Shown here: piece by piece, positions 16,051-22,665 of the stretch | Position numbering within the stretch: the first letter of the stretch is position 1 | Layout: each line of letters starts with the position of its first letter | From: Acetatifactor sp. | Lineage (GTDB): Bacteria > Bacillota > Clostridia > Lachnospirales > Lachnospiraceae | DNA length: 64,000 nt | Direction of reading: 5' to 3' | NCBI GenBank assembly: GCA_024695935.1 | Contig: JAILHH010000020.1 | Coordinates: 1 to 64,000 of the forward strand | Program-made: the position numbers and the translations under genes | Notes under the pieces: generated by a model | Databases searched by the model: none | What the model saw: only the letters and a program-made list of their open reading frames with translations | Told to the model about the DNA's origin: nothing

Positions 16051-16080
16051 TTGAGTTTAATGTATGTATTACATTATAAT
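16051..16080 (+). promoter_or_regulatory. Promoter of the nickel-transport operon
   Basis: TTGAGT (16051-16056) and a perfect TATAAT (16075-16080) are spaced by 18 bp. Transcription should start near 16087 and give a leader of about 175 nt before the first start codon. Confidence 0.75.
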
Positions 16081-16086
16081 ATTAAA

Positions 16087-16261
16087 GGCTGAAGCGTCCG
16101 AAGGCGCATTCATCGGACAGAAGTCCGAGGGCTTTTTAAAAAGATCTTTATTGTTCAAACATTAAAAATACGTATTTAAGTATATCCTGAAGATATGCAC
16201 TGCTTTGAAGGGCGGGCATATCTTCTTCTTTTTTAAAACAACATATGAGGAGAGAGTAAAA
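16087..16261 (+). promoter_or_regulatory. Attenuator-type leader RNA of the nickel operon
   Basis: The leader has a 5' folded part and a 3' switch. In the 5' part, GCGUCC/GGCGC (16094-16107, GAA loop) and CGGAC/GUCCG (16114-16127) form two hairpins. The pentamer GTCCG occurs twice (16096-16100 and 16123-16127) and either copy can pair with CGGAC. A 12-bp palindrome AAATACGTATTT lies at 16166-16177. In the 3' part, GAAGATATGC/GCATATCTTC (16189-16198/16216-16225) plus TTCTTTTTT is a perfect terminator. The upstream GTATATC (about 16179-16185) can instead pair with GATATGC and disrupt it. This is the layout of a riboswitch or another attenuation system. It does not fit the cobalamin or NiCo riboswitch patterns I know. 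Confidence 0.6.
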
Positions 16262-17329
16262 ATGCATATTCCTGAGAATTATTTAAGTCCCGCCACCTGT
16301 GCGGTAATGACTGCCGCAATGGTTCCGGTGTGGGCAAGAGCGGTAAAAAATGTGAAAGCTGAGCTTCCAAAGGAAAAGATATCCATGATAGGAGTGGGTG
16401 CAGCATTTTCCTTTGTGGGCATGATGTTTAATGTTCCCATGCCGGGAGGCACCACGGGACATGCTGTGGGAGGAACCCTTCTGGCAGCCCTTCTTGGACC
16501 GGATGCGGCCTGCATTGCGGTATCAATGGCACTTTTATTGCAGGCACTTATCTTTGGAGACGGAGGAATACTTGCCTTTGGAGCAAATGCTTTTAACATG
16601 GCTTTTGCCATGCCATACATCGGATATGGCATATACAGACTTTTGCTTAAGCTCTTTAAGGTTGACATAAAGGATAGATCCGGGTCAGACAAAAAAATAA
16701 TTTCCGCAGGTGTGGGCTCATACATAGGTATAAATGCGGCGGCTTTTTTGGCTGCGGTTGAATTTGGTATCCAGCCCTATTTCTTTAAGGATGCCGTAGG
16801 AAAGCCCATGTACTGCCCTTACGGACTTAATATTTCCATTCCCTCAATGATGATAGGACATTTAACAGTATTTGGCCTTGCGGAGATCATATTCACGGTG
16901 GCTATACTTGCATATGTATTAAAGACATCACCGGATCTGGTTCACGGCGCTGCAACTGTTGAAACTGAAAAAAGAGTAAATAAAAAGGGTAAGTTTACTT
17001 CCTATCTTCCTCTGCTCTTAGCTGTTTTGATAGCCTTTGTTCCTCTTGGACTTTTGGCCGAGGGAACAGCCTGGGGCGAGTGGGGAAGCGATGAGATCGC
17101 AGAAGTTGTAAGTGACGGAGAAGCTCTTGGCTTTGTCCCTCAGGGAATGGAGAGCGGATTTTCTCTCGAAGCCCTTATTCCCGACTATGCCATTGAGGGA
17201 GTGCCTGATATCATTGCCTATATCGCATCTGCAGTGATCGGTGTGGCAGTGCTTATCATAATCTTCAGACTTATATCTTCACTTTCGGATAAAAACAGGA
17301 TCCATAATGTGGAGCGCAGTAACAGTTAA
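16262..17329 (+). CDS. cbiM: Nickel/cobalt ECF transporter substrate component, CbiM-CbiN fusion
   Basis: A 355-residue membrane protein. The start at 16262 gives the essential MHIPENYLSP N-terminus, whose His2 ligates the metal in this family; GAGGAGAGAG precedes it. The CbiM body spans about residues 1-235 (MPGGTTGHAVGG, GDGGILAFGANAFNMAFAMP). A C-terminal CbiN/PDGLE-like part (about 245-350) has an extracytoplasmic loop between two helices. Members of this family carry Co(II) or Ni(II). The following lar genes make nickel far more likely, as in LarMNQO of Lactiplantibacillus. An in-frame ATG at 16205 lies within the attenuator and is rejected. Confidence 0.9.
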   Translation: MHIPENYLSPATCAVMTAAMVPVWARAVKNVKAELPKEKISMIGVGAAFSFVGMMFNVPMPGGTTGHAVGGTLLAALLGPDAACIAVSMALLLQALIFGDGGILAFGANAFNMAFAMPYIGYGIYRLLLKLFKVDIKDRSGSDKKIISAGVGSYIGINAAAFLAAVEFGIQPYFFKDAVGKPMYCPYGLNISIPSMMIGHLTVFGLAEIIFTVAILAYVLKTSPDLVHGAATVETEKRVNKKGKFTSYLPLLLAVLIAFVPLGLLAEGTAWGEWGSDEIAEVVSDGEALGFVPQGMESGFSLEALIPDYAIEGVPDIIAYIASAVIGVAVLIIIFRLISSLSDKNRIHNVERSNS

Positions 17330-17347: not shown

Positions 17348-18157
17348 ATGAAAAAAAATGAGTTATATCCCGGTTTTATGCCGGATTGGATGATGCAAAA
17401 AAACGAATACGTACCGTCAAAGGACCGGGAAGGCTTTCTAACAAAAAGCCTTCTTGGTTTTTTGCGTCTTTTCAGGCATTTTTCCATGAGAGGAAATTCT
17501 GATATTTCGGTTATGGCCGCAGGAATGGGGCTGATCCTGACACTGGGGCTCATAATCCTTGTGGCACTTACGGATTCCCTGACATATTTAGCATGTGTTG
17601 GGGCTTTGGTTCTTGCTTTTTTAAGTTTTTCAAAGCTTGAGATCATGAAAAGGGCTCTGGGAACAAGCCTTAGCGTAATGGCTTTTACATTTGTGATAAT
17701 GCTCCCGTCATATTTTTTATATGGGTCTTTAAGCTATATATACATACCGGTCAAGGTTTTTTTGTCCGTATCCATGCTGTCCGTATATACATCCATCGTG
17801 CCATGGAACAGGATGACTGCGGCATTAAGGCTTTTTGGAATGCCGAACATATTGATATTTGTGCTGGATATGACCATTCATTACATACTCATTTTGGGAA
17901 ATGTGGCATTTGATATGCTGGCAGCCTTAAAACTAAAGAGCATCGGAAAAAACAGGGACAAAGTAAATTCTTTTTCAGGCATAAGCGGTACAGTCTTTAT
18001 GAAGGCCGTCACAATGTCAAAGGAGACGGAGGATGCGCTGACCTGCAGGCTTTTTGACGGAAAATACGATTCAAAAAAGGAAAGGATTGTTTTTGCCGAT
18101 TTTATCCCGCTGTTTATCCTTTGTATTTTTATTTTTTTGTATATATTTGTGGGATAA
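17348..18157 (+). CDS. cbiQ: ECF transporter transmembrane (T) component, CbiQ type
   Basis: A 269-residue membrane protein with about five helices. It has the coupling-helix region around AALRLFGMPNILIFVLDMTIHYI and GTVFMKAVTMSKETEDALTCRLFDG near residues 215-240, where CbiQ/EcfT proteins carry the conserved short motifs that contact the ATPase. The N-terminal 40 residues are hydrophilic and longer than usual. It begins 18 bp after the CbiM-N gene. Together with the next gene it forms the energising module for nickel uptake. Confidence 0.85.
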   Translation: MKKNELYPGFMPDWMMQKNEYVPSKDREGFLTKSLLGFLRLFRHFSMRGNSDISVMAAGMGLILTLGLIILVALTDSLTYLACVGALVLAFLSFSKLEIMKRALGTSLSVMAFTFVIMLPSYFLYGSLSYIYIPVKVFLSVSMLSVYTSIVPWNRMTAALRLFGMPNILIFVLDMTIHYILILGNVAFDMLAALKLKSIGKNRDKVNSFSGISGTVFMKAVTMSKETEDALTCRLFDGKYDSKKERIVFADFIPLFILCIFIFLYIFVG

Positions 18158-18219: not shown

Positions 18220-18894
18220 ATGGGAAGACATTTACAGATAGAATTGGAGGATGTGTACTTCAGATATGAGGACACACCTGCGCTGAATGGCATATCATTA
18301 AAGGTTTACGAGGGTGAGACCATAGGCTTAAAAGGAGACAACGGAAGCGGAAAGTCAACACTTTTAAGGCTCTTAAACGGTCTGGTATTTCCTGACAGCG
18401 GCAGATATCTGCTGGGCGGAAATGAGATAAACGGTAAGGCTATGAGGGATGAACTGTTTGCCAAGTCCGTCCACACAAAGATCGGATACGTGTTTCAAAA
18501 TTCCGACACCCAGCTTTTTTGCGGAAGTGTCAGGGAGGAAGTGGAATTCGGACCAAGACAGATGGGTTTATCCGATGAGGAAGTTTGGAGGCGAACAGAG
18601 GATGTGCTTAAGATGCTTGACCTTGAAAAAATACAGAACCGTCCCCCGTATCACTTAAGCGGCGGAGAAAAGAAAAAGACGGCTCTTGCCTCGGTCCTTT
18701 CCATGAATCCGGATATTCTGATGCTGGATGAGCCCATGAACGGACTGGACAAAAAGACGGTTGAGTGGCTGACGGGATTCATGTCACTTTGGAAAAAAGC
18801 CGGAAAGACACTTATAGTTGCAACCCACGATGAGAACCTTCTCTATGAAACGGCGGATAAGGTGATCGAACTGCATGAGGGCAAGATCATATAA
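18220..18894 (+). CDS. cbiO: ECF transporter ATPase, CbiO type
   Basis: A 224-residue cytoplasmic ABC ATPase. It has Walker A GDNGSGKST (about residues 40-48), the Q-loop in FQNSDTQLFCGSVREEVEFGP (typical of CbiO/EcfA), signature LSGGEKKKTALA (about 145-156), Walker B ILMLDEPMNGLD and the switch His in VATHDENL. A single ATPase is present, so it likely works as a homodimer. It starts 62 bp after cbiQ with GAGGGGG as ribosome binding site. A short dyad (ACAGTTT/AAACTGT) in that gap may be a weak internal signal. Confidence 0.92.
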   Translation: MGRHLQIELEDVYFRYEDTPALNGISLKVYEGETIGLKGDNGSGKSTLLRLLNGLVFPDSGRYLLGGNEINGKAMRDELFAKSVHTKIGYVFQNSDTQLFCGSVREEVEFGPRQMGLSDEEVWRRTEDVLKMLDLEKIQNRPPYHLSGGEKKKTALASVLSMNPDILMLDEPMNGLDKKTVEWLTGFMSLWKKAGKTLIVATHDENLLYETADKVIELHEGKII

Positions 18895-18938: not shown

Positions 18939-19694
18939 ATGGACCAGGAAAAAATGCGGGAACTGCTTAAAAAATATAAAAATGGCGAAGCCACGGAGGA
19001 GGATGTGATCCTGAAACTAAAGGAAGCTCCTTTCGAAGATCTTGGTTTTGCAAAACTTGACAGTCACAGAGCCCTAAGACAGGGTATCGCGGAAGTGATA
19101 TACGGTGCAGGAAAGACACCGGAGCAGATCCTGGAGATAGCAAAAGCCGCAAAGGCAAAGGGCCAGGAAACCATTCTGATAACCAAGATGAGTAAGGATG
19201 CCGCCGAAGTTTTAAGGGGTGAAGTCGGATTAAATCTTGACTATGATGAGCTGAGTAAAACCGGTATCTGCGGAAAGATGCCTGCAAAAAACGGACGAGG
19301 CAAAATTGCCATAGTCACAGGGGGCACCAGCGACATGCCTGTTGCCGAGGAAGCGGCAAGATGCGCAGAGGCCTTTGGAAACGAGGTGGACAGGATATAT
19401 GATGTGGGTGTGGCAGGACTCCACAGACTCCTCTCAAACCTTGACAGGATAATGGAGGCGAAGGTTGTTATCGCCATTGCCGGTATGGAAGGTGCTCTTG
19501 CAAGTGTGGTGGGTGGCCTTGTGGATGTGCCTGTTTTGGCAGTTCCCACAAGCGTCGGATACGGAGCAAGCTTTAACGGGCTCTCTGCTCTTTTATCCAT
19601 GCTTAATTCCTGTGCCAGCGGTGTCAGTGTGGTAAACATCGACAACGGTTTCGGAGCTGCATATCAGGCCAGCATGATAAATCATATAAAATAA
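18939..19694 (+). CDS. larB: Nickel-pincer cofactor biosynthesis protein LarB
   Basis: A 251-residue protein. LarB carboxylates and hydrolyses nicotinic acid adenine dinucleotide, the first step to the nickel-pincer nucleotide used by lactate racemase and related enzymes. It has the PurE-like core: IVTGGTSDMPVAEEAA (about residues 124-139), AGMEGALASVVGGLVDVPVLAVPTS and GYGASFNGLSALLSMLNSCA. The N-terminal 60 residues carry the LarB-specific FAKLDSHRALRQGIAEVIYG stretch. It follows cbiO by 44 bp, with GGAGG before the ATG. Together with larC and larE it makes a complete cofactor set. Confidence 0.93.
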   Translation: MDQEKMRELLKKYKNGEATEEDVILKLKEAPFEDLGFAKLDSHRALRQGIAEVIYGAGKTPEQILEIAKAAKAKGQETILITKMSKDAAEVLRGEVGLNLDYDELSKTGICGKMPAKNGRGKIAIVTGGTSDMPVAEEAARCAEAFGNEVDRIYDVGVAGLHRLLSNLDRIMEAKVVIAIAGMEGALASVVGGLVDVPVLAVPTSVGYGASFNGLSALLSMLNSCASGVSVVNIDNGFGAAYQASMINHIK

Positions 19695-19758
19695 AAAGTC
19701 AGACAGGGTAAAACAAATTTAGACGAAAATGATATTTTCATCGGGAAAAGAGGGCTTA

Positions 19759-21105
19759 ATGAAGACATTATATCTTGAATGTAATATGGGCGCCGCAGGT
19801 GATATGCTCACTGCGGCATTATTGGAACTTTTGCCGGAGGAAAGGCAAAAGGAAGTCTTGGACAGACTGCAAAATCTGGGACTTGAAGGCGTGGAGATCA
19901 AAAAAGAGAAGGTCACAAAATGCGGTATCGCAGGAACTCATATGAAGGTGACTGTAAACGGTGAGGAAGAAGTCAGTGAGGATGTGGATCATGAGCATCA
20001 CCATGACCACGAACATTGTCATGATCACGAACATGACCACGATCATGATCACTGCCATGACCACAGCCACAACCACGACCATGATCATGACCACAATCAC
20101 GAACACGACCATCATGACCATGCCCACCATCACCATCATCACACTTCCATAAAGGACGTAGAAAAGATCATATACGGCATGGCACTTCCCTTTGGCGTAA
20201 AGATGGATGCGGTGGCTGTATATAAATTGATCGCCGAGGCAGAGAGCAATGCCCACGGAATGCCGGTTGAGGAGGTGCACTTCCACGAGGTGGGCAGCAA
20301 GGATGCCATAATGGATGTGGTGGCAGTTTGTCTGTTAATGCATGAGATAGATGCGGACAATATTTTCGCCTCCCCTGTACATGTGGGAAGCGGTCAGGTC
20401 AGATGTGCCCATGGCATAATGCCTGTTCCCGCACCTGCAACGGAATATTTATTACGTGGTATCCCTTCATATCAGGGAAATATCAAAGGGGAACTTTGCA
20501 CACCTACGGGAGCCGCTCTTTTAAAACACTTCGTCACTAAGTTTGGTCCCCGTCCCATGATGAATGTGGATAATGTGGGAATCGGATGCGGTATGAAGGA
20601 TTTTGAGGCTGCTAACTGTGTGAGGGCCTTTCTGGGAGACCTAATAACTGAGGAAACTCCCGGTAAATCAGAGAAAAAAGATGACACAGATACTGTTTTT
20701 GAACTGAATGCCAATGTGGATGACATGACTGCCGAGGAGATAGGTTTTGCTTGCGATAGGATCTTTGATGCGGGGGCCAGGGAAGTGTTTACAGAGTCCG
20801 TTTATATGAAAAAGAACCGTCCGGGGACACTTATCACGGTGATCTGTGACAGTAAGAGTAAAGAGTCTGTGCTGGAAGCGTTTTTTAAGCATACCACCAC
20901 CATCGGCATCAGAGAAAAAGAGTGTAACCGCTATGTGTTAAGCAGAAGCTTTGATAAAACCGAGACGGAATTTGGAACGCTTACCACAAAGACAAGTTCC
21001 GGATATGGTACTAAAAAGACTAAGGTGGAATATGATGATGCCGCAGAGGTAGCTCTTAAGCATGGCATGACTCTCAGAGAGGCGAGGGAATTGATCAACA
21101 GATGA
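19759..21105 (+). CDS. larC: Nickel-pincer cofactor nickel insertase LarC with His/Asp run
   Basis: A 448-residue cyclometallase that inserts nickel into the pincer nucleotide. LarC1 (LYLECNMGAAGDMLTAALLEL at the start, then FHEVGSKDAIMDVV, CTPTGAALLKHF) and LarC2 (NVDDMTAEEIGFACDRIFDAGA, VYMKKNRPGT, RREL-like end) lie in one uninterrupted frame. No programmed frameshift is needed, unlike Lactiplantibacillus. A segment of about 55 residues (about 76-130; nucleotides 19986-20142) is almost only His, Asp and Glu with a few Cys and Asn, ending in six His. It is probably a nickel store. The start at 19759 follows AAAGAGGG; an upstream in-frame ATG at 19729 lacks a good site. Confidence 0.93.
   Translation: MKTLYLECNMGAAGDMLTAALLELLPEERQKEVLDRLQNLGLEGVEIKKEKVTKCGIAGTHMKVTVNGEEEVSEDVDHEHHHDHEHCHDHEHDHDHDHCHDHSHNHDHDHDHNHEHDHHDHAHHHHHHTSIKDVEKIIYGMALPFGVKMDAVAVYKLIAEAESNAHGMPVEEVHFHEVGSKDAIMDVVAVCLLMHEIDADNIFASPVHVGSGQVRCAHGIMPVPAPATEYLLRGIPSYQGNIKGELCTPTGAALLKHFVTKFGPRPMMNVDNVGIGCGMKDFEAANCVRAFLGDLITEETPGKSEKKDDTDTVFELNANVDDMTAEEIGFACDRIFDAGAREVFTESVYMKKNRPGTLITVICDSKSKESVLEAFFKHTTTIGIREKECNRYVLSRSFDKTETEFGTLTTKTSSGYGTKKTKVEYDDAAEVALKHGMTLREARELINR
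19986..20142 (+). repeat. His/Asp codon repeat inside larC
   Basis: A low-complexity stretch of CAY and GAY codons encodes alternating His-Asp/His-Glu dipeptides. The repeat keeps long open frames on both strands, which produces spurious Met/Ile-rich overlapping frames that are not genes. At protein level it resembles the His-rich tails of nickel chaperones such as HypB and UreE. Confidence 0.9.
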
Positions 21106-21947
21106 TAAGCGATACCGAAAGAGAAAAACTTGAAGCCCTAAGGGCATATTTTAAAGAGCTCGGAAACTGCGCCATCGCTTTTTCCGGTGGGGTGGATTCC
21201 ACTTTTATGGCAAAAGTTGCCCATGACGTTTTGGGTGAGAAAATGCTTGCGATAACTGTTGTGGCATCCTCTTTTCCAAAAAGAGAGATGGATGAGGCAA
21301 AGGAATTTTGCAAAAAAGAGGGGATTCCCCATGTGATGGTGGAATATGACGAACTTTCGATCCCGGGATTTAAGGAGAATCCAAAGGACAGGTGCTATAT
21401 CTGCAAAAAAGCACTCTTTGGTAAAATGATGGAGATTGCAAAAGTCAGGGGTTTTATAAATTTGGCGGAAGGGTCAAACATGGATGACAACGGTGATTAT
21501 CGTCCGGGGCTATTGGCTATAAAAGAAATGAATGTTAAGAGTCCGCTCCGTCATGTGGGACTTACAAAGGCAGAGATCAGGGACCTCTCAAAAGAGCTTG
21601 GACTTCCCACATGGAACAAGCCCTCCTTTGCATGCCTGGCATCAAGATTTCCCTATGGGGAGGAGATCTCACATGAAAAACTTGACATGGTAGGTAAGGC
21701 TGAGCTGCTTTTGATAGACATGGGATTCGAGCAGATGAGAGTCAGGATCCACGGGAATATAGCCCGGATCGAAGTGTTGCCTCAGGATATCCTAAAGGTT
21801 GCAGAGCCGGAAAACAGAGAGAGGATCGTCACGGAGTTTAAAAACTATGGATTTTCCTATGTTTCACTGGATCTTCAGGGATACAGGACAGGAAGCATGA
21901 ATGAAATATTGGATAAAAATGCCCTTTCTAAAGGTAAAAATTTATAA
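21102..21947 (+). CDS. larE: ATP-dependent sacrificial sulfur transferase LarE
   Basis: A 281-residue PP-loop protein that adds sulfur to the pyridinium dicarboxylate mononucleotide during nickel-pincer synthesis. It shows SGGVDST (about residues 28-34), RCYICKKALF (about 93-102), GSNMDD and CLASRFPYG near residue 176. The Cys of CLASR is the position that donates its own sulfur in single-turnover LarE proteins. Three-cysteine [4Fe-4S] LarE types exist; the visible CxxC lies elsewhere, so the sacrificial type is more likely here. It overlaps larC by 4 bp (ATGA). Confidence 0.92.
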   Translation: MISDTEREKLEALRAYFKELGNCAIAFSGGVDSTFMAKVAHDVLGEKMLAITVVASSFPKREMDEAKEFCKKEGIPHVMVEYDELSIPGFKENPKDRCYICKKALFGKMMEIAKVRGFINLAEGSNMDDNGDYRPGLLAIKEMNVKSPLRHVGLTKAEIRDLSKELGLPTWNKPSFACLASRFPYGEEISHEKLDMVGKAELLLIDMGFEQMRVRIHGNIARIEVLPQDILKVAEPENRERIVTEFKNYGFSYVSLDLQGYRTGSMNEILDKNALSKGKNL

Positions 21948-22026: not shown

Positions 22027-22665
22027 ATGCAGGATTACAAGAAGATCAATTATGCAACCAACAAAGATGTAGTGCTCCGATATGTACCCGGTCACTTCAT
22101 CACTCCTCATTCACATGTCAATTATTACATGGACTTAACGGACATGAAATCCAGACAGCGTGAAGCCAGAGCCACCGGTGAAGAGCTGGCAAGCCACTAT
22201 ATGATCACCGAGATCGTGGATACCATTATCTGCCTTGACAATATGGAGGTTGTGGGAGCGTATCTTGCCAACAAACTCACAAAGGCGGGTGTTCATTCCA
22301 TGAATGCTCATCAGACCATCTATATCGCATCCCCCGAGTATGACTCCGGCGGACAGATAATTTTCAGAGAAAACAGTAAGCATATGGTAAAGGGCAAAAA
22401 GGTCCTCTTACTTTTGGCTACGGTTTCAACCGGAAATACCATCCAGAAAGCCATCCAGTCCATCCGTTATTACGGAGGCGAGGTCATGGGTATATCCGCT
22501 ATTTTCTCTGCTGCAACCCGTATCATGGAAATCCCCGTAAACTCTTTGTACGGAACAAAGGATTTGCCTGATTACGCAAACTATAAGCCTGATGAATGCC
22601 CTCTCTGCAAACAGAGAGTGCAGGTGGACGCACTTTGTAACGGCTTTGGGTTTTCCCTTATTTAG
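22027..22665 (+). CDS. Orotate phosphoribosyltransferase-like protein with altered PRPP motif
   Basis: A 212-residue type I phosphoribosyltransferase-fold protein. The segment KGKKVLLLLATVSTGNTIQKAI (about residues 122-143) sits where these enzymes bind PRPP, but the two acidic residues of the canonical (V/I)DDxxxTGxT are replaced by uncharged ones. The C-terminus carries CPLCKQRVQVDALCNGFGF, with a CxxC and a third Cys that could bind metal. Either catalysis is unusual or the protein senses a nucleotide, as PurR does. It has its own promoter and no pyrimidine genes next to it. AGGAGGGG precedes the ATG. Confidence 0.65.
   Translation: MQDYKKINYATNKDVVLRYVPGHFITPHSHVNYYMDLTDMKSRQREARATGEELASHYMITEIVDTIICLDNMEVVGAYLANKLTKAGVHSMNAHQTIYIASPEYDSGGQIIFRENSKHMVKGKKVLLLLATVSTGNTIQKAIQSIRYYGGEVMGISAIFSAATRIMEIPVNSLYGTKDLPDYANYKPDECPLCKQRVQVDALCNGFGFSLI

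Follow-up and report, generated by a model that had tools for sequence, protein, structure and literature searches.

We analyzed a 64,000-nucleotide stretch of DNA from Acetatifactor sp., hereafter the window. Six genes on its forward strand form the operon cbiM-cbiQ-cbiO-larB-larC-larE, which combines nickel/cobalt ECF uptake with nickel-pincer nucleotide synthesis. The first gene (16262-17329) encodes CbiM with a PDGLE domain, part of a nickel/cobalt ECF transporter (NCBIfam PRK07331 above cut-off; Pfam CbiM and PDGLE), and is followed by genes for a CbiQ-like T component (17348-18157; Pfam CbiQ) and a CbiO-like ATPase (18220-18894; profile search with NCBIfam and Pfam). Nickel-pincer nucleotide synthesis is represented by larB (18939-19694; NCBIfam NF033503 above cut-off), larC (LarC1 + LarC2, 19729-21105; NCBIfam TIGR00299 and NF052512), and larE, encoding a sacrificial sulfur transferase (21102-21947; NCBIfam TIGR00268). 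The LarC sequence carries a long His/Asp-rich insertion (HDHEHCHDHEHDHDH...), possibly a nickel store, and a phosphoribosyltransferase-like gene lies 3' of larE on the same strand (22027-22665).

A promoter precedes the operon on the same strand at 16051-16080, where a consensus scan found the -35 element TTGAGT (16051-16056) and the -10 element TATAAT (16075-16080) separated by 18 nt. Its 10 of 12 consensus matches are not significant alone; the only congener compared has a matching promoter, TTGAGA ... TATAAT, and the promoter named in the original prediction was retained. Two small hairpins start 14-33 nt past the -10 element: HA1, GCGUC[CGAA]GGCGC (16094-16107), identified by folding and by a scan for hairpins with loops ending in GAA (GAA-loop hairpins), and HA2, UCGGAC[AGAA]GUCCGA (16113-16128). 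An AU-rich linker of 51 nt leads to the candidate antiterminator hairpin HB, GUAUAUC[CUGAA]GAUAUGC (16180-16198), also found by the GAA-loop scan, and to an intrinsic terminator, GAAGAUAUGC ... GCAUAUCUUC plus a U-rich run (16189-16234), recognized from sequence and folding. The terminator arms (16189-16198 and 16216-16225) pair perfectly over 10 bp, as had been predicted, and the U-rich run extends through 16234, ending 27 nt 5' of the cbiM ATG (16262). The apical part of the terminator is itself a hairpin, H4, CUGCUU[UGAA]GGGCGG (16200-16215), detected by folding and the GAA-loop scan and present at the equivalent position in the related loci L049, L173, L182, and L276. The ribosome binding site (RBS) of cbiM (GAGGAGAGAG, 16247-16256) follows.

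HB and the terminator are mutually exclusive because the 3' strand of HB belongs to the 5' arm of the terminator: GTATATC (16180-16186) pairs with GATATGC (16192-16198), a piece of that arm. The computed energies were -4.7 kcal/mol for HB and -21.6 kcal/mol for the terminator. These results bear out the GTATATC antiterminator of the original prediction, and the exclusive hairpins together with the gene annotations support its view that the region is an attenuator controlling genes for nickel uptake and the nickel-pincer cofactor. The leader folded more stably than all of 200 shuffles (z -3.6). All four window hairpins (at least 5 bp, non-overlapping, within 155 nt) have loops ending in GAA (CGAA, AGAA, CUGAA, and UGAA); dinucleotide shuffles of 155 nt held on average 0.066 GAA-loop hairpins, with a maximum of two in 5000 shuffles and three or more in 0 of 5000. 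No second cluster of four GAA-loop hairpins occurs on either strand of the 64 kb.

The leader is conserved in the congener, a yak-rumen metagenome-assembled genome (G001, locus L035). HA1 is preserved, and HA2 differs at two base pairs in a compensating way, giving UUCGAC[AGAA]GUCGAA. Identity over HB and the 5' part of the terminator is 47 of 48 bases, the remaining leader having diverged. About 270 nt are inserted between the terminator and cbiM of the congener, and its U run is poorer. A repeat-rich element (GCTCCGC...GGATGCGCAC; L035:600-880) lies in this interval and is also found 5' of cbiM in Eubacterium oxidoreducens (L037). One further detail of the original prediction, a CGGAC segment with two competing GTCCG partners, stood only in part: both partners exist, but the 5' alternative is the weaker one (-9.0 vs -15.1 kcal/mol) and does not survive in the congener, where HA2 is changed. 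We therefore dropped the idea of a switch between the two GTCCG partners, and from the sequences the double partner looks like a coincidence.

A DNA search with the leader among 60 relatives returned only the congener and one 29-nt match at a non-cbiM locus, and none of the viral contigs searched contained the exact leader pattern. The design itself was widespread. Among 60 upstream regions of cbiM-type genes sampled across Clostridia, many genera shared a hairpin of 5-8 bp with an ANGAA loop shortly 3' of the -10 element, a linker of mostly 30-70 nt, and a second ANGAA hairpin overlapping an RBS-adjacent terminator. In the Lachnospiraceae locus L049, the hairpins GGUCCC[AGAA]GGGAUC, GUAUAUC[ACGAA]GGUAUAC, and GCUGCUC[UGAA]GGGCAGC precede a terminator 5' of cbiM. 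HB and the terminator were mutually exclusive, with the terminator far more stable, in all eight leaders evaluated (the window and seven others). The AGAA loop of HA2 is also that of the 5' hairpins in L049, L173, L180, L182, L197, L179, L020, and L276; adjacent double 5' hairpins recur in L276, and L277 has a CGAA-loop 5' hairpin. Two Lachnospiraceae leaders that adjoin a gene of the family DUF3842, L276 and L020, have the doubled 5' hairpins, AGAA loops, HB, and hairpin within the terminator seen in the window. Individual leaders vary, with two to four hairpins, linkers of 4 to about 150 nt, and loops of 4 or 5 nt. Because linkers vary, MAFFT alignment of whole leaders was unusable, and the hairpins were instead aligned with N-padding. 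Alignment A4 of nine leaders showed compensatory changes at five of the six HA2 pairs and 96% of cells paired, figures that are partly circular in that the relatives were picked by their hairpins. The structure is thus conserved with compensatory changes among related leaders, the covariation that the original prediction had named as its check.

The same design precedes other operons. It lies ahead of operons of cooT and DUF3842 (DUF3842-cooT in G288; cooT beside DUF3842 in G440 and G511) and ahead of operons of an ECF S component and a uridine-kinase-like protein, most of whose leaders resemble that of the window in two ways: their 5' hairpins carry exactly the AGAA loop of HA2, and their terminator contains a third hairpin. 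These S-component/kinase loci (L173, L176, L177, L179, L180, L182, L183, L188, L197, L276, and L277) often neighbor DUF3842. A connection of this orphan system to nickel is suggested. At L022 (G039), cbiM directly follows the genes for the kinase and the S component, and DUF3842 lies upstream. At L202 (G511:C51, 3004-4254), the leader precedes a SAM-dependent methyltransferase gene with a weak match to CpaM (corrinoid-protein-associated), which is followed by an ECF S component.

Known RNA families did not account for the leader. Rfam 15 gave no match at gathering thresholds in the 64-kb window, which agrees with the original prediction that the leader resembles neither the cobalamin nor the NiCo riboswitch. 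At relaxed thresholds the matches near the leader were at chance level (the best was RefA1, 20.2 bits vs a gathering threshold of 94), and the GAA-loop leaders of relatives matched no Rfam family. Rfam identified a NiCo riboswitch shortly 3' of cbiM-cbiQ-cbiO at L047:8739-8828 and a cobalamin riboswitch at L057:2660-2843, each separate from the GAA-loop leader. No nickel or cbiM attenuator of such design was found in the literature outside subscription journals.

Two covariance models were built. R1 describes both hairpins of the ANGAA type; it scored 15-36 bits on recognized leaders and located the design ahead of the cooT/DUF3842 and S-component/kinase operons. It did not match the window leader, whose loops (AGAA, CUGAA) diverge from the ANGAA type, and it likewise missed that of the congener. 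R2 describes HB and the following hairpin and was built from 13 leaders, none from the genus of the window. In the 64 kb, R2 ranked 16180-16217 first at 17.1 bits (E 0.13, E-values of such a short model being rough), with the next match at 12.5 bits; it also ranked the congener leader first in its own contig and, at 25.6 bits, picked up a cbiM leader from outside the seed, that of G110. That leader (L306) has three direct repeats, GTTCAGTGAAGGYCG, ahead of HB and about 30-90 nt before the R2 match, as if a GAAGG element were repeated. Weak R1 and R2 matches elsewhere in the genome of the window fall within coding sequence. Leader counts are lower bounds because the genome-wide scan scores few candidates per genome.

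Clustering of the genes around leader loci yielded one shared non-transporter family, DUF3842 (PF12953), and no other common gene. DUF3842 was present in 135 of 391 genomes of Clostridia and missing from most of the sampled Lachnospiraceae. The genome of the window encodes it on a separate contig (G000:C8:23482-23862, E 5.7e-50), and the congener has it too. The association with the leader was assessed in the 78 genomes whose sequence 5' of cbiM had been inspected, a match to R1 being at least 15 bits; the model score was chosen because a loose hairpin scan yielded chance matches. Both were present in 32 genomes, the R1 match only in 1, DUF3842 only in 11, and neither in 34 (Fisher p=3.7e-11), so that DUF3842 occurred in 32 of 33 genomes with an R1 leader vs 11 of 45 without. 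The 11 genomes with DUF3842 only include those of the window and the congener, whose leaders R1 misses. The association persisted when permuted within families (p=0.002), which controls for relatedness at the family level. A model-free count agreed: among the 64 loop triplets 5' of cbiM, GAA ranked first by a wide margin in genomes with DUF3842, at 1.16 per 260 nt vs 0.22 in genomes lacking it (Mann-Whitney p=1.4e-8, 5-nt loops being allowed to end in G). There were exceptions: DUF3842 was not found in G266, which has two good leaders, and G403 has DUF3842 and a different promoter site. A second set of 44 genomes was searched separately and conformed to expectation: DUF3842 is encoded by the congener and by the genomes carrying L049, L050, L053, L055, L056, L057, and L059, and the genomes with a CCCC...GG promoter site lack it. 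Where a single contig held both genes, DUF3842 and cbiM were separated by 2-3.5 kb (11 genomes checked), and DUF3842 often shares an operon with leader-bearing genes. In the genome of the window, the DUF3842 gene stands alone and has no GAA-loop leader of its own; a solitary, leaderless gene could fit a regulator acting in trans.

Nearly all relatives without DUF3842 had a different promoter site or neither element. A TATCCCCC(n)GGGGCTTGTG-like site, overlapping the -35 element of cbiM about 50-110 nt 5' of the gene, was seen in genomes lacking DUF3842, from Lachnospiraceae and elsewhere (examples are L007, L010, L014, L016, L019, L036, L038, L043, L051, and L054), and 26 of 28 upstream regions with such a site came from genomes lacking DUF3842. 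This site is perhaps the operator of an RcnR/CsoR-like nickel repressor.

DUF3842 has a GxGGxxG-type N-terminus. Its fold is predicted, with modest confidence, to be Rossmann-like (pLDDT 71; best Foldseek hit at E 0.003, TM 0.37), and the model reached VIA-align Z scores of up to 9.4 against ordinary dehydrogenases. This prediction is silent on RNA binding, for which Rossmann-like folds are not typical; from the model, DUF3842 could conceivably have a nucleotide ligand. No mention of DUF3842 was found in the literature outside subscription journals. Of 47 cooT genes, 34 have DUF3842 no more than 700 bp away. CooT, a nickel-binding dimer (PMC6006190), was considered as the regulator and rejected: it is absent from the genome of the window, and its association with the leader (19/8/7/20, p=0.002) is looser than that of DUF3842.

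The existence of the leader is confirmed, and taken together these data lead us to think it fairly probable that it is an on/off transcription attenuator, one of a widespread and apparently undescribed family of leaders built from tandem GAA-loop hairpins, that it responds to nickel, and that DUF3842 is its most likely trans factor. DUF3842 is the leading candidate because leaders occur almost only in genomes that encode it. The short GAA-loop hairpins, with their variable stems and linker, look like an array of candidate protein-binding sites. By default, the nascent RNA would fold the terminator (16189-16234), and transcription would end before cbiM. A trans factor, most likely DUF3842 encoded elsewhere in the genome and responding to nickel status, would recognize the GAA-type loops of the hairpins at 16094-16128 and of HB (16180-16198) as the RNA emerges. 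With HB held closed, the terminator would lose its 5' arm and polymerase would read into cbiM-cbiQ-cbiO-larB-larC-larE. Read-through would be expected at nickel shortage because these genes import and use nickel, and the uptake and cofactor genes would then be on. The structures, their mutual exclusion and conservation, the spread of the family, and its link to DUF3842 are observed; RNA binding by DUF3842 itself, nickel as the signal, and the direction of control are inferred. More tentatively, and with somewhat more doubt than confidence, we propose that DUF3842 founds a new class of RNA-binding antiterminators that read tandem GAA-loop hairpins and control nickel uptake, CooT, and the orphan ECF S-component/kinase system. 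For nickel homeostasis in Clostridia, our reading provides a regulator and an RNA target that can be tested; it also proposes the first role for DUF3842, assigns CooT to a regulon, and gives a way toward the substrate of an orphan ECF S component that has its own kinase.

The original prediction raised the possibility of a new riboswitch with Ni(II), the pincer nucleotide, or nicotinic acid adenine dinucleotide (NaAD) as possible ligands. In such a scheme, the GAA-loop hairpins would themselves be the binding site for Ni(II)/Co(II) or for a metabolite (the nickel-pincer nucleotide or NaAD), and DUF3842 would act only in the same metabolism, as an enzyme or chaperone; the co-occurrence could stem from shared metabolism. 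The target genes share a narrow theme (nickel uptake, CooT, and nickel-pincer genes), tandem small hairpins are able to form aptamers, as in guanidine-II, and protein binding to the leader is something we infer. We saw no sign of an aptamer, however: what is conserved is short hairpins and their GAA-ending loops, with variable stems and linker, and they track a trans-encoded protein. A direct riboswitch is less likely than protein-dependent antitermination because the number of hairpins and the linkers vary, as does loop size, which is unusual for an aptamer, and because genomes have the leader according to whether they have a protein gene. We consider it unlikely.

Protein-dependent antitermination might also be exerted by another RNA-binding protein, with DUF3842 as its partner, for instance as a sensor or a nickel-metabolism enzyme. 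The Rossmann-like fold and N-terminal motif of DUF3842, which suggest nucleotide rather than RNA binding, speak for such a partner, as does its usual pairing with the nickel protein CooT. Neighborhood clustering provided no second shared gene to fill the role, though, CooT is missing from the genome of the window and more loosely associated with the leader, and the loops, stems, and linker rule out an ANTAR protein, so that we find this arrangement improbable. The absence of any regulation, that is, a plain terminator with chance hairpins and constitutive partial read-through, would sit well with the congener's insertion and poorer U run, and regulation of the window leader is predicted from sequence. 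It is very hard to reconcile with the compensatory changes in HA2, the near-identity of HB and the terminator where the rest of the leader diverged, and the recurrence of the architecture in distant leaders at levels that the shuffles and the loop-triplet enrichment exclude as chance. We regard it as highly improbable. DUF3842-dependent antitermination remains our preferred reading.

Several known systems resemble parts of this design. The NiCo (czcD) riboswitch (RF02683) is likewise tied to metal-linked genes, but it is a compact single aptamer with a four-way junction, and it has no match in the window. Guanidine-II (mini-ykkC) also has two hairpins with a short conserved loop, the ACGR tetraloop, and ACGAA resembles ACGR plus one base. 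The leaders described here accept any base at loop position 2 and keep GAA; this loop rule and the lack of an Rfam match exclude guanidine-II identity. In the RAT of the BglG-LicT system, one hairpin of ~30 nt with internal loops is stabilized by a protein and excludes a terminator, whereas the present leaders have several simple stem-loops in tandem. The closest likeness is to the targets of the ANTAR proteins EutV, NasR, and AmiR, in which a pair of small hairpins keeps certain loop bases constant and the downstream one overlaps an intrinsic terminator. ANTAR targets have hexaloops with A1 and G4, 3-bp stems in the search motif, and a linker of 5-12 nt, and adding 20 nt kills function (PMC3369931, PMC8934654). 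Here the stems are 5-8 bp, the loops have 4-5 nt and end in GAA (none in the window being a hexaloop), and the linker is usually 30-70 nt, with 51 nt between HA2 and HB; ANTAR target identity was therefore rejected. The principle would be shared: a protein that holds the second hairpin closed prevents termination, as we propose for this leader. If confirmed, our proposal would place a further kind of protein-dependent antitermination next to ANTAR and BglG/LicT.
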